Assembly (NCBI RefSeq): GCF_000378205.1
Contig: NZ_KB899412.1
Span: 124,001-188,000 of the forward strand
Direction of reading: 5' to 3'
Source of the DNA: Sediminispirochaeta bajacaliforniensis DSM 16054
Lineage (GTDB): Bacteria; Spirochaetota; Spirochaetia; DSM-16054; Sediminispirochaetaceae
DNA length: 64,000 bases
This document shows positions 1 to 5,162 of this stretch, one piece after another. Each line of letters opens with the position of its first letter. The first letter of the stretch is position 1. Below the pieces are notes generated by a model. The model had not been told where the DNA came from. It worked only from the letters and a program-made list of their open reading frames with translations, and made no database searches. Position numbers and translations under genes: made by a program.

Positions 1-1509
1 AAGGTTGTTAACCTGCTCCTTGAGGGGATCGACAATCTTCGAACCAGCCTGAAGCAGATCCAGAGTGGCGATTTGAAGCCCGGCGTAGATACTGAGCATC
101 ATATCATTGCCGAAAAGGCAATGAACAGTAAAAACGCCGGAGACTATCAACCGCTGGGGGATCTTTTAGTCGAGATGGGGGTTGCCTCCCGAGAGTCGGT
201 AGATGAAGCGCTTGAACTTCAGCAGATGCGACTGGGTGAAATTCTTGTAAAGCAGGGAAAGGCAGAACCACAGGCGGTTGAGAAGGCGCTGGAAAGCCAG
301 GGAAAGCCTGCAGGAAAGAATGATCAGTTTGCCAACTACCGCCTCAAGCGGAAGGACATTCGGGTTGATACCGAACGTCTTGATACCCTCTTTGATTTGA
401 TGGGGGAGCTGATTACCGCCGAGGCCATGGTGCTTAATAGTCCCGATCTGGAGGAGTTTGATCATCCTAATTTTGATCGATCTGCAGCCTATCTTTCAAA
501 GATAAGCCGTGAGCTGCAGGAAATTACCATGACGATCAGGATGATCCCGATGGATGGTTTGTTCAATAAAATGCGGCGACTGGTTCGGGATCTTTCAAAG
601 AAGTTTAATAAAGAGATTTCTTTGGTAGTCAGCGGCGAAGAGACCGAGATGGACCGCAATGTAATGGAAGAGATCTCAGATCCTTTGGTTCATATTATTC
701 GAAATGCCATTGATCACGGGGTTGAGGACCCCGAGAGTCGGAAGAAGGCCGGAAAGGCCGAAGATGGGACCATCGAACTGCGGGCCCGCTATGAGGGAAA
801 CGAGATATGGGTCACCATTGCCGATGACGGCGGCGGGCTTAATAAAAAGCGGATTCTCGAGCGGGCAGTGGAACGAGGCCTTGTACAAGAGGATCAGGTG
901 CTTTCCGACAAGGAAGTGTTCCAGTTGATTTTCGAACCTGGGTTCTCCACTGCCGAACAGGTATCGGAGATATCCGGCCGGGGTGTCGGCATGGATGTTG
1001 TCAAGAAGAATCTGGAGAAACTTCGAGGCAAAATCGATATCGAGAGCCAGGAAGGGAAAGGTACTACCTTTACCCTAAAAATTCCTCTTACGCTGGCGAT
1101 TATCGATGCAATTAATTTTACCGTCGGGCGGCAGCTCTATGCCATCCCCATCACCGATGTCATTCAGTTTCATAAGGCGGTCGGTTCTGAATTGACCGAA
1201 ACGGAAGAGCGTCGTCAGATTATTACCTTACGCGGGCAGGTACTCCCTCTGATAAAAATGAAAGAGTTCTTTGCCGTAACAGAGGGCAAAGAGGAAGCTG
1301 AAGAGGGAATTGTTATTGTGGTCCGCTCCGGCAATCATACGGCGGCCCTGCTTGCGGATGAAATCGTGGGATATCGCCAAATGGTTATCAAAGCTCTCCC
1401 TTCCTATCTTGGAAATTTGCGGGCCGTTTCCGGATGTAGCATAATGAGTGATGGAAAGGTAAGTCTTATTGTTGATACCGGGGCATTACTCGGCACTACA
1501 CTTCAATAG
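1..1509 (+). CDS. cheA: Chemotaxis histidine kinase CheA (5' end outside window)
   Basis: The reading frame is open from base 1, so the N-terminus lies upstream; the first codons look like the last helix of the P1 phosphotransfer domain. Seen in order: a charged linker, two abutting 24-residue LG-xx-LV-xx-G repeats (bases 151-222 and 229-300), the P3 dimerisation helices (RVDTERLDTLFDLMGEL), the HATPase domain with N box NAIDHG, G1 box ADDGGG, F box FEPGFSTA and G2 box GRGVGMDVV, and a CheW-like P5 domain ending at the stop. Known role: receptor-coupled kinase that phosphorylates CheY and CheB. It heads the operon cheA-cheR-cheB-cheD-cheY-cheX-REC. Odd: no ordinary P2 CheY-binding domain is visible; the repeats occupy its place and resemble MshEN-type c-di-GMP binding motifs. 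Identity is secure; the function of the repeats is inference. Confidence 0.95.
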   Translation, partial: KVVNLLLEGIDNLRTSLKQIQSGDLKPGVDTEHHIIAEKAMNSKNAGDYQPLGDLLVEMGVASRESVDEALELQQMRLGEILVKQGKAEPQAVEKALESQGKPAGKNDQFANYRLKRKDIRVDTERLDTLFDLMGELITAEAMVLNSPDLEEFDHPNFDRSAAYLSKISRELQEITMTIRMIPMDGLFNKMRRLVRDLSKKFNKEISLVVSGEETEMDRNVMEEISDPLVHIIRNAIDHGVEDPESRKKAGKAEDGTIELRARYEGNEIWVTIADDGGGLNKKRILERAVERGLVQEDQVLSDKEVFQLIFEPGFSTAEQVSEISGRGVGMDVVKKNLEKLRGKIDIESQEGKGTTFTLKIPLTLAIIDAINFTVGRQLYAIPITDVIQFHKAVGSELTETEERRQIITLRGQVLPLIKMKEFFAVTEGKEEAEEGIVIVVRSGNHTAALLADEIVGYRQMVIKALPSYLGNLRAVSGCSIMSDGKVSLIVDTGALLGTTLQ

Positions 1510-1521
1510 CCGGAGCGGATT

Positions 1522-2361
1522 GTGGATGGGCTGATAGAGATAAGTGAAAAAGAGTTTCGGACTCTTGCGGATCTCATTTATCGTACGGTAGGAATACATC
1601 TCACCGATAAGAAAAAGATGCTGGTTCGGGGAAGGCTGAACAAGGTAATCAGAAGGCTCGGCTTCTCATCTTTTGAGGAGTATTTTCATGCTCTCGAGTC
1701 GGATACCAGCGGAAAGAATATCAGCGAACTTATTGACAGAATATCGACGAACCATACCTATTTTTTTCGTGAAAACGACCATTTTGATTTTTTTTGTGAA
1801 ACCGTTGTTCCCTGGCTAAACGAGATTATGGCAAAGAAGGGAAATCGGGATCTTCGGATATGGAGTGCAGGATGTGCTTCGGGGGAGGAGGCTTATACCC
1901 TTGCCATGTTGCTTGCCGAAACCTATGGTTCCGATTATTTTTCTGCGGGTGCTCCTATTCTTGCTACCGACGTTTCTTCTACCGCCTTGAACGCGGCACT
2001 TTTGGGATCGTACCCCTTTGAGCGGCTGAAAGATGTTCCAAAGCTTTTTTTGCAAAAATACTTCACAAAGCTGGGAGGGGATCGTTATCAGGTTAAGGAA
2101 GTTTTGAGAAGATTAGTTCTTTTTAAACGATTCAACTTCAATAACGAGCATTTCCCGTTTCGAAACGCTTTTCACGTTATTTTTTGCCGCAATGTGATGA
2201 TTTACTTTGACCCTCCCACAAAGGACAGGCTGATAACGAAATTTCAGCGTTTTTTGGAGCCGGATGGTTTTCTTTTTATCGGGCATTCGGAAACTTTGGG
2301 GCGAAGTCACCCTTCGTTTCGGTATATCCGGCCGGCTACGTACCGGAAAGGAGCGGTGTGA
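1522..2361 (+). CDS. cheR: Chemotaxis protein methyltransferase CheR
   Basis: SAM-dependent methyltransferase that methylates glutamates of chemoreceptors for adaptation. The N-terminal all-alpha CheR domain (about residues 5-65) is followed by the SAM-binding core: WSAGCASGEEAYT (motif I), ATDVSSTAL (acidic loop) and FCRNVMIYFD near the C-terminus. At 279 aa it has the usual length and no TPR extension. The GTG start at 1522 follows cheA by 12 bases with a weak GGAGCGGA ribosome site. The stop shares one base with the start of cheB (TGATG), so the two are translationally coupled. Confidence 0.96.
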   Translation: MDGLIEISEKEFRTLADLIYRTVGIHLTDKKKMLVRGRLNKVIRRLGFSSFEEYFHALESDTSGKNISELIDRISTNHTYFFRENDHFDFFCETVVPWLNEIMAKKGNRDLRIWSAGCASGEEAYTLAMLLAETYGSDYFSAGAPILATDVSSTALNAALLGSYPFERLKDVPKLFLQKYFTKLGGDRYQVKEVLRRLVLFKRFNFNNEHFPFRNAFHVIFCRNVMIYFDPPTKDRLITKFQRFLEPDGFLFIGHSETLGRSHPSFRYIRPATYRKGAV

Positions 2362-3419
2362 TGGTACAGCACAAGATTCGTGTCCTGATTGTCGATGATT
2401 CGGCTCTTGTCCGATCGATCTTGTCGAAGGGCCTTTCTCAGGATCCTTCCATCGAGGTGGTCGGTGTTGCTCCCGATGTGTATGTCGCTCGGGACAAAAT
2501 TGTGCTCTTAAAGCCTCATGTCGTTACCCTCGATGTGGAAATGCCGAGGATGGACGGTGTGGAGTTCCTCAAGCGCCTGATGCCGCAATATCCGATTCCG
2601 GTTGTTATGGTATCGGCCATGACCGCTCCCGGCGCCCGGGTGACCTTGGATGCTCTGGAAAACGGAGCTGTCGATTTTGTTTTAAAACCCTCTTCCAGTT
2701 TTGGAAATAATCTGGAGGATATGCTGGGTGAACTTATCGAAAAGATCAAGGCTGCCTCGGTTGTCGATGTAAGTCGATTTAAGGGCCGTTTCCATGCTAA
2801 ACGGCTCCGAAAACAGGTAAGCGGGGTTTTAAGTGGTTCGACAGATAAGGTTGTCGCTATCGGGGCCTCTACCGGCGGAACCGTAGCGCTTCGTCAGATT
2901 GTTGAGGCTTTTCCTTCCGATATGCCTGGAACGGTGATCGTTCAACATATGCCTCCGAAATTCACAAAGATGTTTGCCGATAAGCTTAACGAGATTACGG
3001 ATGTTGAGGTAAAGGAGGCTGAAAATGGCGATAGAGTACTTCGAGGCAGGGTTCTTGTCGCTCCCGGCGGCTATCATATGGAGATAGTCCGGTCCGGCGG
3101 CCGCTATATTGTTAGGATTAAGGAGGGCGACAAGGTAAACGGGCATTGCCCCTCTGTTGATGTTTTGTTTGATTCCGTTGCCGAACATGTAGGACCCAAT
3201 GCAGTGGGTGCGCTTCTGACCGGAATGGGAAGGGATGGGGCGGATGGTCTGCTGCGGATGAAGAATAACGGGGCTCGTACCATTGCACAAGATGAAAAAA
3301 GCAGCGTGGTGTTCGGTATGCCGAAAGAGGCGTGGGAAAACGGTGGAGCTGAAAAACTGGTTTCTCTTGAAGAGATTCCGAAGACCTTGGTCTCCATTTT
3401 GAAGGAGCTCGATAGATGA
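2361..3419 (+). CDS. cheB: Chemotaxis-specific protein-glutamate methylesterase CheB
   Basis: Two-domain adaptation enzyme: an N-terminal receiver regulates a C-terminal methylesterase/deamidase acting on chemoreceptors. The receiver runs from RVLIVDDS with phospho-acceptor Asp58 (TLDVEMPRMDG) to the KP at about 109-110. The esterase domain carries AIGASTGG (Ser170), VIVQHMP (His196) and GMGRDGADG (Asp292), which fit the Ser-His-Asp triad of the family. I chose the ATG at 2361 over the in-frame GTG at 2358 because AAGGAG at 2348-2353 is then 7 bases away. The stop overlaps the cheD start (ATGA). Confidence 0.96.
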   Translation: MVQHKIRVLIVDDSALVRSILSKGLSQDPSIEVVGVAPDVYVARDKIVLLKPHVVTLDVEMPRMDGVEFLKRLMPQYPIPVVMVSAMTAPGARVTLDALENGAVDFVLKPSSSFGNNLEDMLGELIEKIKAASVVDVSRFKGRFHAKRLRKQVSGVLSGSTDKVVAIGASTGGTVALRQIVEAFPSDMPGTVIVQHMPPKFTKMFADKLNEITDVEVKEAENGDRVLRGRVLVAPGGYHMEIVRSGGRYIVRIKEGDKVNGHCPSVDVLFDSVAEHVGPNAVGALLTGMGRDGADGLLRMKNNGARTIAQDEKSSVVFGMPKEAWENGGAEKLVSLEEIPKTLVSILKELDR

Positions 3420-3892
3420 GGTTGGATGTGGGCATCGGAGAATTTGGGGTTAGTGCTCGTCTCGAAGATGAGATTAAAACCTATGCCCTTGGTTCTTGTG
3501 TGGCTGTTATCGCCTATGATCAGGAACGACATGTTGCCGGTTTGATCCACATAGCTCTACCCGAAGCAAAGGTTAATCTCGATAAAGCCAAAAAGCGGCC
3601 GGGATATTTTGCAGATAGCGGCTTGCCGATTTTTCTTCAAGCCTTGGAAAGGCAGGGCGCAAACAGGCGAAAGCTCAGGATAAAATTGGCAGGTGGTGCC
3701 AGCATTATGGATGAAAATCGACAGTTTGATATCGGCCGGAGAAATATGATAGCCATTAAACGTTTTCTCTGGAAAGTTGGGCTCGGCGTGCTTCGCGAGG
3801 ATGTAGGCGGTACGATCAGCCGGACTGTTCGGATCGAAGTTAAGACGGGAGAGGTGACTATTTCTAATGCGAAGTCAGTATGGAGTTTATAG
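3416..3892 (+). CDS. cheD: Chemoreceptor glutamine deamidase CheD
   Basis: Deamidates receptor glutamines and, in CheC/CheD systems, partners with CheC-type phosphatases. The family signature is clear: TYALGSCVAV with Thr22 and catalytic Cys28, then GLIHIALPEA with His45, matching the Thr-Cys-His site known in Thermotoga CheD. Length of 158 aa is normal. The ATG overlaps the cheB stop by four bases. No CheC is seen in the window; the downstream CheX-like protein is the only CheC/X/FliY family member here. Confidence 0.95.
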   Translation: MRLDVGIGEFGVSARLEDEIKTYALGSCVAVIAYDQERHVAGLIHIALPEAKVNLDKAKKRPGYFADSGLPIFLQALERQGANRRKLRIKLAGGASIMDENRQFDIGRRNMIAIKRFLWKVGLGVLREDVGGTISRTVRIEVKTGEVTISNAKSVWSL

Positions 3893-3919: not shown

Positions 3920-4291
3920 ATGCAGTTGAAAAGCATTCTTATTGTAGACGATTCCGCTACTTCTAGAATGATAACAAAGCGTTGTTTTATGATGGCGGGG
4001 TTTCAGGATATTATTTTTCACGAGGCAGAGGACGGACTGAACGCAATGACGTTTTTGAACGACCGGCTCGTTGATTTGATTGTCACCGATCTGCGTATGC
4101 CGAAAATGGATGGAAAGACCTTTGTTCGGAAGTTGAACATGGGAGAACGCACTGCTTCAATTCCCGTTATCGTGCTATCGAGTATGGGCAATGAGCAGAT
4201 GGAAAAAGAGTTGGGGGAAGATCAAGTCCTTGCCATCATACGAAAACCACTCTCACCTGCCAAGATTGCCGAAGTTTTGGAAGGGGAGTAG
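3920..4291 (+). CDS. cheY: CheY-like single-domain response regulator
   Basis: Single receiver domain of 123 aa: acidic pair Asp10-Asp11 (ILIVDDSATSR), phospho-acceptor Asp57 (VTDLRMPKMDG), conserved Ser/Thr in VLSSMG and Lys in IRKPLS. Known role: CheA-phosphorylated CheY binds the flagellar switch. The start has an upstream GAGGGGAG. It sits three bases before cheX, in the arrangement found in other spirochaetes where CheX dephosphorylates CheY. Whether this or the second receiver at 4764 is the motor-binding CheY cannot be decided from sequence alone. Confidence 0.88.
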   Translation: MQLKSILIVDDSATSRMITKRCFMMAGFQDIIFHEAEDGLNAMTFLNDRLVDLIVTDLRMPKMDGKTFVRKLNMGERTASIPVIVLSSMGNEQMEKELGEDQVLAIIRKPLSPAKIAEVLEGE

Positions 4292-4293
4292 GC

Positions 4294-4761
4294 ATGGAAA
4301 CACTCTGTACTTCAGATCGTATTGAGAAAGCCCTTATTAATGCTATTGCTCTGACGTTTGCCGATATGAGTTTTCTCGATGTTCAGCCGGCTTCCGATAG
4401 CGGTGAGCTTGAAGACGGCCAGCTTCTACACATTACCTTTGTCGCTCCGATATCCGGTGGAATGATATTAATGCTTCCTCTGGAGTTGAAACGGCAAATC
4501 GTTGAGAATGTTCATGCCGCTTCATGGGAAGATTTAACTACTGCCCAGATCGACGACTGCCTTCTTGAGCTGCTGAATGTTCTTGCCGGTAATTTTCTTC
4601 AGATTCTTTTCGGCGAAGAAACGAAGATAAATCTTTCATTTCCCGAAGTGCTTTTCGAACGGTCGGAAGTGAACCACTGTGAAAGGTATTCCGATTACTA
4701 TTTTAGCGCCGAGGGAACACTTCTTGTCGTTTCGGTATATGCTCATGAAACTGGAGAGTGA
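4294..4761 (+). CDS. cheX: CheX-type CheY-P phosphatase
   Basis: A 155-aa CheC/CheX/FliY family protein. The phosphatase helix reads D-CLL-E-LL-N (DCLLELLNVLAGN), fitting the family pattern D/S-x3-E-x2-N, and is followed about 22 residues later by a Pro in SFPEV. One such motif is present, as in CheX and unlike CheC, which has two. Expected role: dephosphorylation of CheY-P, as shown for CheX of Borrelia and Treponema. It lies between two receiver genes, either of which may be its substrate. The stop overlaps the next ribosome site region. Confidence 0.85.
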   Translation: METLCTSDRIEKALINAIALTFADMSFLDVQPASDSGELEDGQLLHITFVAPISGGMILMLPLELKRQIVENVHAASWEDLTTAQIDDCLLELLNVLAGNFLQILFGEETKINLSFPEVLFERSEVNHCERYSDYYFSAEGTLLVVSVYAHETGE

Positions 4762-4763
4762 TC

Positions 4764-5162
4764 ATGAAAATTTTGATTGTCGAAGATGATTTTGCAAGTA
4801 GAAAGTTGATGGAAAACCTGCTGAAAGAGTTCGGCGACTATGATTCGGTGGTTGATGGAGAGGAAGCCCTCCAAGCCTTCAGAATCAGCCTTGAGGATAA
4901 AACTCCCTATGATCTCATCTGCCTTGATATCATGCTTCCGAAACTGGACGGTCAGACCGTGTTGCGGGAGGTCCGAAGGATAGAAGAGGAACGCGGCATT
5001 TTGGGACTGGACGGTGCAAAGGTGATTATGACTACCGCTTTAGGTGATGCCGTGAATGTCATGACCGCCTTTCGGAGTCAGTGTGAAGGCTATATCCAAA
5101 AGCCGATTACGAAGGAGAAGTTGGTATCAATGATGCTCGATCTGGGGCTCCTTGCCCGCTGA
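4764..5162 (+). CDS. Response regulator, receiver domain only
   Basis: Receiver domain of 132 aa without output domain: acidic pair in ILIVEDDFASR, phospho-acceptor Asp55 in CLDIMLPKLDG, Thr pair in VIMTTALG and Lys in IQKPITKE. It closes the chemotaxis operon. The ATG at 4764 is preferred to the in-frame GTG at 4758 because GGAG at 4753-4756 is 7 bases upstream. It differs from the CheY at 3920 in having a longer loop after helix 2, so it may be a phosphate sink or a second CheY. Its last 56 bases overlap the 3' end of the convergent neuB-like gene. Confidence 0.85.
   Translation: MKILIVEDDFASRKLMENLLKEFGDYDSVVDGEEALQAFRISLEDKTPYDLICLDIMLPKLDGQTVLREVRRIEEERGILGLDGAKVIMTTALGDAVNVMTAFRSQCEGYIQKPITKEKLVSMMLDLGLLAR

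Follow-up and report, generated by a model that had tools for sequence, protein, structure and literature searches.

The chemotaxis kinase CheA of Sediminispirochaeta bajacaliforniensis DSM 16054, whose gene opens the 64,000-nucleotide stretch of DNA analysed here (the window), contains a real, conserved MshEN_N-type module that falls within the NCBIfam family NF053729 as that family is defined, and that lacks three features of a full MshEN domain, namely a match to Pfam PF05157, a 5-residue spacer and the C-subdomain. We consider it fairly probable that this short-spacer module binds c-di-GMP and so tunes chemosensory output. The basis for this reading comprises the repeat pair itself, its membership of a curated profile, the predicted fold, the conserved contacts, the position next to P3, the deep conservation, and the GGDEF and PilZ counts of the genome.

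The cheA gene and its neighbourhood

Pfam domains and the upstream genome sequence showed that positions 1–1509 of the window (forward strand, as for all window features below) are the 3' part of cheA and encode the C-terminal 502 of 857 residues; the start lies 1,065 bp before the first position of the window and the whole gene occupies L001:7936-10509. The complete protein has the order Hpt-Hpt-repeat pair-P3-P4-P5 in Pfam and NF053729 searches, with the CheA core present in Pfam (Hpt twice, H-kinase_dim, HATPase_c and CheW) and with the repeat pair at residues 406–455, P3 at 474–534, P4 at 581–719 and P5 at 726–852. The motif HTIKG is found in both Hpt domains; the end of the second Hpt (P1) domain lies at 1–90 of the window, where Pfam gives two Hpt stretches in the full protein and the edge was taken from the sequence. 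Pfam places the P3 dimerisation domain (H-kinase_dim) at 355–537, the P4 kinase domain (HATPase_c) at 676–1092 and the P5 CheW-like domain at 1111–1491.

The gene is the first of a cheA-cheR-cheB-cheD-cheY-cheX-receiver cluster, continuing with cheR (1522–2361; Pfam CheR, 4.4e-57), cheB (2358–3419; CheB_methylest, 2.4e-65, plus Response_reg), cheD (3416–3892; CheD, 2.4e-27), a CheY-like receiver (3920–4291; domain search), a CheX-like phosphatase (4294–4761; CheX, 9.8e-9) and a receiver-domain protein (4758–5162; domain search). A second, spirochaete-type cheA cluster adjoins this one in L001, and a CheW-CheR-like fusion (L001:2102-3439) is encoded within that neighbouring cheA/cheX/cheY cluster. 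Approximately 2.1 kb upstream of cheA, L001:4431-5834 encodes a protein with receiver and HD-GYP-type domains (Pfam HD_5, 2e-22), possibly an inactive c-di-GMP phosphodiesterase homologue since HEIGK and DGSGQP replace HDIGK and DGxGYP in its sequence.

Sequence and profile identity of the repeat pair

The preliminary description had placed two 24-residue repeats at 151–222 and 229–300, separated by 2 residues, and these coordinates proved exact. Repeat I (PLGDLLVEMGVASRESVDEALELQ, 151–222) has P1 (Arg in MshE), L2, G3, V17, L21 and Q24 at the contact positions, repeat II (RLGEILVKQGKAEPQAVEKALESQ, 229–300) has R1, L2, G3, V17, L21 and Q24, and the spacer between them (QM, 223–228) compares with 5 residues in canonical MshEN. 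The repeats are identical at 11/24 positions, against a maximum of 9 in 1000 shuffles of the linker.

NF053729 ('c-di-GMP_motif, MshE-related'; 53 positions, curated cut-off 38 bits) matched residues 406–455 of CheA at 41.4 bits over profile positions 1–53, and the score for CheA was 46.6 bits in the genome scan. Pfam MshEN (PF05157, cut-off 23.1 bits) gave no match in CheA, in its linker or in the whole genome, nor in any of the 85 homologous CheA linkers, because the C-subdomain is missing and the spacer is short. The profile match expected for the linker was therefore found with NF053729, over its full length and above the cut-off, but not with PF05157, and on balance we count this search as positive. 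Searched with phmmer against PDB sequences, the linker found Thermus thermophilus PilF (4e-11), while a profile of the 85 CheA linkers found PilF (1.8e-24), several PilB proteins and Vibrio cholerae MshE (5HTL; 8.3e-8). An origin of the pair from DUF4388/PATAN (PF14332) was rejected, the scores being 13–16.9 bits against a cut-off of 25.

Genome-wide, NF053729 had two clear matches, both of them CheAs, and one borderline match, at 37.4 bits just below the cut-off, to a free-standing 63-aa protein (L047:1492-1683; C17:111952 in the same genome) that is nearly all tandem MshEN-type repeat pair with a spacer of roughly 5 residues. A weak half-repeat (FLVDQGIITRSDVTEALEH, 15.4 bits) was also seen near the C-terminus of a glycoside-hydrolase-family-3-like protein (L048:1-1710; C12:42983 in the same genome).

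Predicted fold

An AlphaFold2 model of the linker and P3 region, built on an 85-row alignment, confidently predicts a four-helix MshEN_N-type fold for the pair (helices 7–14, 19–27, 33–39 and 45–54), with block pLDDT values of 86–91 over most of it. The top PDB matches in Foldseek were 8PFA (PilF-GSPIIB) and 5HTL (MshE), both of which are c-di-GMP complexes; the superpositions had a probability of 1.00 and an rmsd of 1.2–1.3 Å over approximately 54 columns with 34–41% identity, so that the modelled fold is like MshEN, as had been anticipated. The other half of the model matched CheA P3P4. The E-values for the pair-plus-P3 query were weak (0.07), a probable effect of combining two small domains in one query, and it is the probability, rmsd and identity that carry weight. 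The MshEN_C subdomain is absent from CheA, where only a low-confidence linker (301–354; model residues 60–74, pLDDT <50) precedes P3, which counts against rigid coupling of the pair to P3.

A generic helical repeat, or a chance likeness unrelated to MshEN, might be read from the silence of PF05157 and from the faint DUF4388/PATAN resemblance (16.9 bits), but we give this explanation almost no credence, since it is contradicted already by the profile, fold and repeat tests: NF053729 scores above its cut-off, the PDB sequence match stands at 4e-11, the fold superposes at 1.2 Å, and 0/1000 shuffles reach the identity of the repeats.

Ligand-contact residues and the nature of the ligand

In the MshE complex, R1 stacks on the ligand, L2 makes contact, the backbone NH groups of G3 and residue 4 reach the guanine, L17 and L21 stack, and Q24 contacts the ribose/phosphate (PMC5013675). 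Across these positions in the two repeats (R1, L2, G3, L17, L21 and Q24, twice), CheA is identical at 9/12, conservative at 2 (V17 in both repeats) and different at 1 (P1 of repeat I); both repeats have L2, G3, L21 and Q24, and only repeat II has R1. Among the 85 CheA linkers, for which conservation is inflated because they were selected with the motif profile, G3 is found in both repeats of all 85, Q24 in repeat II of all 85 and in repeat I of 70/85, and L21 in 73/85 and 81/85. Position 1 is R/K in approximately 70%, with Pro there in 17/85 for repeat I and 14/85 for repeat II. The MshEN-type identity first proposed from the sequence is thus upheld by the NF053729 score, by the fold match to 5HTL and 8PFA and by the conserved ligand-contact residues.

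An Arg at position 1 is not essential for binding, as PilF GSPII-B, with Lys/Leu at this position, binds c-di-GMP at 6 nM and GSPII-C still binds although one of its repeats starts with Pro (P335) (PMC11731258), whereas PilF GSPII-A constructs that had lost the repeat II Arg no longer bound (PMC12002112). For c-di-GMP binding the N-subdomain can suffice, since an engineered PilF9-65 has an affinity similar to MshEN (PMC12002112). No short-spacer MshEN with a solved structure or measured affinity was found in the literature searched. From the sequence and the model together, we regard binding of c-di-GMP by the CheA pair as likely, because Arg-less and Pro-1 binders are documented, and temper this because the GSPII-A substitution was not tolerated; counted against binding are Pro-1 in repeat I, V17 twice, the 2-residue spacer, the lack of MshEN_C and the lack of a PF05157 match.

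These departures bear on a different explanation, which we judge rather unlikely, in which the pair keeps the MshEN_N fold without nucleotide binding and serves, between P1 and P3, as a rigid spacer or as a docking module (for CheY/CheB, CheX, P4 or array partners). Non-binders with this fold are known (XpsE, PMC5013675; PilF GSPII-A, PMC12002112), and Pro-1 of repeat I and the shortened spacer deviate from the binding consensus; yet Pro-1 also occurs in a PilF domain that binds c-di-GMP, and G3 and Q24, the residues best known for ligand contact, are among the most conserved linker positions across several phyla.

That the physiological ligand is another cyclic dinucleotide, e.g. 3',3'-cGAMP, seems improbable. 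Geobacteraceae are known to have GGDEF enzymes that make cGAMP, and CheAs of this family (L122, L127, L131 and L140) have the same linker. Also in favour, the V. cholerae MshEN domain binds cGAMP weakly (Kd 3.3e-4 M; PMC5013675). Against this reading, the pair showed no cGAMP-specific feature, and the invariance of G3 in both halves leads one to expect guanine-selecting backbone contacts in each.

Proposed mechanism and comparison with known systems

With c-di-GMP as the ligand, the two repeats would fold into a compact MshEN_N-type module of four helices that corresponds, with a shorter spacer, to the c-di-GMP-binding half of MshE and PilF, and that sits in CheA between the phosphotransfer domains and the dimerisation helices. 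One guanine of a single c-di-GMP would be bound by each repeat, by way of backbone NH groups (G3 and residue 4), a Leu/Val cluster and the terminal Gln; the module would close or stiffen on binding, which would alter the reach of the tethered Hpt to P4 or the transfer of phosphate to CheY/CheB, and chemosensory output would then depend on the cellular c-di-GMP level. A change in CheA kinase or phosphotransfer activity, of either sign, is a weaker proposition than binding itself.

The pair resembles V. cholerae MshE and T. thermophilus PilF GSPII-B/C in its tandem 24-residue repeats, four-helix bundle and G3/L2/L21/Q24, and differs from them in a spacer of 2 residues (1–2 in most CheAs) rather than 5, in Pro-1 of repeat I, in the absence of MshEN_C, and in its host protein, a CheA kinase in place of a secretion/pilus ATPase. 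In Escherichia coli, the glycosyltransferase NfrB is activated by c-di-GMP through MshEN, and so also has an MshEN that regulates another kind of enzyme, although both the enzyme and the position differ from CheA; the NfrB NCBIfam models match the CheA linker weakly, far below their cut-offs.

The pairing of MshEN with CheA has itself been known since 2016, when a single sentence by Wang et al. named CheA and CheX among MshEN fusions, a sentence that does not describe the position, spacer, distribution or function of the CheA fusions (PMC5013675). Berry, Andrianova and Zhulin (2023) surveyed 13,673 CheAs, including spirochaete, multi-Hpt and P2-less architectures, without mention of MshEN or c-di-GMP; the domains were found mainly by Pfam models (PMC10782961), and the silence of that survey on the pair is plausibly explained by the failure of Pfam models to detect it (0/85). 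The apparently new elements are the short-spacer form made up of the N-subdomain only, how widely it occurs, and the lack of any mention of it in the 13,673-CheA survey. In a search of open-access papers, no MshEN-bearing CheA turned up whose ligand binding or kinase activity had been assayed.

The known effects of c-di-GMP on swimming are exerted at the motor, by YcgR-type PilZ proteins, or via receptors, as with the PilZ chemoreceptor Cbp1. If the proposed binding is real, the kinase would be a further point, beside the motor or receptors, at which c-di-GMP acts on chemotaxis, the sessile-motile switch could set the kinase serving all receptors together, and many CheAs annotated with an unstructured linker or no P2 would have a folded domain for ligand binding. 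Binding and kinase assays are direct, the module being small, probably soluble and found in many bacteria.

Relation to the P2 domain

The usual P2 CheY-binding domain, earlier reported as not seen, is truly absent from this CheA, as there is no Pfam match and only approximately 20 residues of room between the second Hpt and the pair. The accompanying claim that the pair stands in place of P2 was too strong, because the second CheA of the same genome (L032) and roughly half the CheA entries with the motif have both (57/112, duplicates included, with a P2-like domain beside the pair), and P2 is in any case absent from about half of all CheAs (PMC10782961). In L032, a ferredoxin-like P2-like domain is followed by the same pair (AlphaFold2 pTM 0.82); 1U0S (CheA P2) was among its many ferredoxin-like Foldseek matches (probability 1.00) and had the highest TM by target (0.58) among the matches listed, while phmmer of the segment against the PDB gave nothing useful, so that the label 'P2-like' refers to fold and position only. 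The pair is a separate, extra module adjoining P3 and not a general substitute for P2. A docking role without nucleotide binding is conceivable because this CheA has no P2, but CheAs with a P2-like docking domain have the pair as well.

c-di-GMP signalling context

With 15 GGDEF matches, synthesis of c-di-GMP is present in the genome, which also has 8 PilZ matches. Genomes bearing the motif had a median of 15 GGDEF matches (minimum 5, n=51) against a median of 3.5 in motif-free genomes (n=24), and the difference was also seen among genomes of 2–3 Mb (13 vs 5) and inside a single family (p=9e-4); lineage and the absence of the entire gene both confound the association. Three CheAs without the pair are found in genomes with 5–19 GGDEFs. 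Though confounded, this co-occurrence favours a link to c-di-GMP.

Distribution and history in CheA proteins

The pair immediately precedes P3 in 85 CheAs drawn from several phyla, with a spacer of 1 residue in 54/85 and 2 in 22/85 (5 in canonical MshEN), and NF053729 matches all 85 linkers. A single-contig genome of the same genus (G001), probably that of a cultured species, encodes a CheA with 97% identity to this one, in which the pair is nearly unchanged. The survey of spirochaete CheA linkers suggested at the outset gave a match to the linker + P3 alignment in 226/392 sampled Spirochaetota genomes at 1e-12. Roughly 105 of these genomes, counted by hand from the table, had a match at ≤6e-28, and the matches listed at that level all cover both pair and P3, with one exception at a contig end. 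The same arrangement was found in contigs labelled Desulfobacterota/Geobacteraceae/Desulfovibrio, Nitrospirota, SAR324 and Myxococcota, and also under the labels Planctomycetota (Scalindua/Brocadiaceae), Deferribacteraceae and Actinoplanes.

In a P3-P5 tree of 37 CheAs (midpoint root; deep forks only moderately supported), the clade of this CheA spans SAR324, a Myxococcota-labelled bin and spirochaetes, nearly all with the pair. The pair-free CheAs (L012/L014/L015, and L013) are nested inside the clade, and on these sequences the pair looks ancestral in it, with at least two losses. Its dispensability in these two lineages fits a module that does not bind nucleotide. The wider claim that CheA itself has a direct c-di-GMP input through an ancient, Pfam-missed short-spacer MshEN_N module, common in Spirochaetota, Desulfobacterota, Nitrospirota and other phyla, appears to us evenly poised.

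Four Scalindua/Brocadiaceae CheAs (L095, L097, L101 and L108) have three or more MshEN-type repeats in succession (e.g. ...ALSEQKPIGKIL...), which suggests two putative modules in series.
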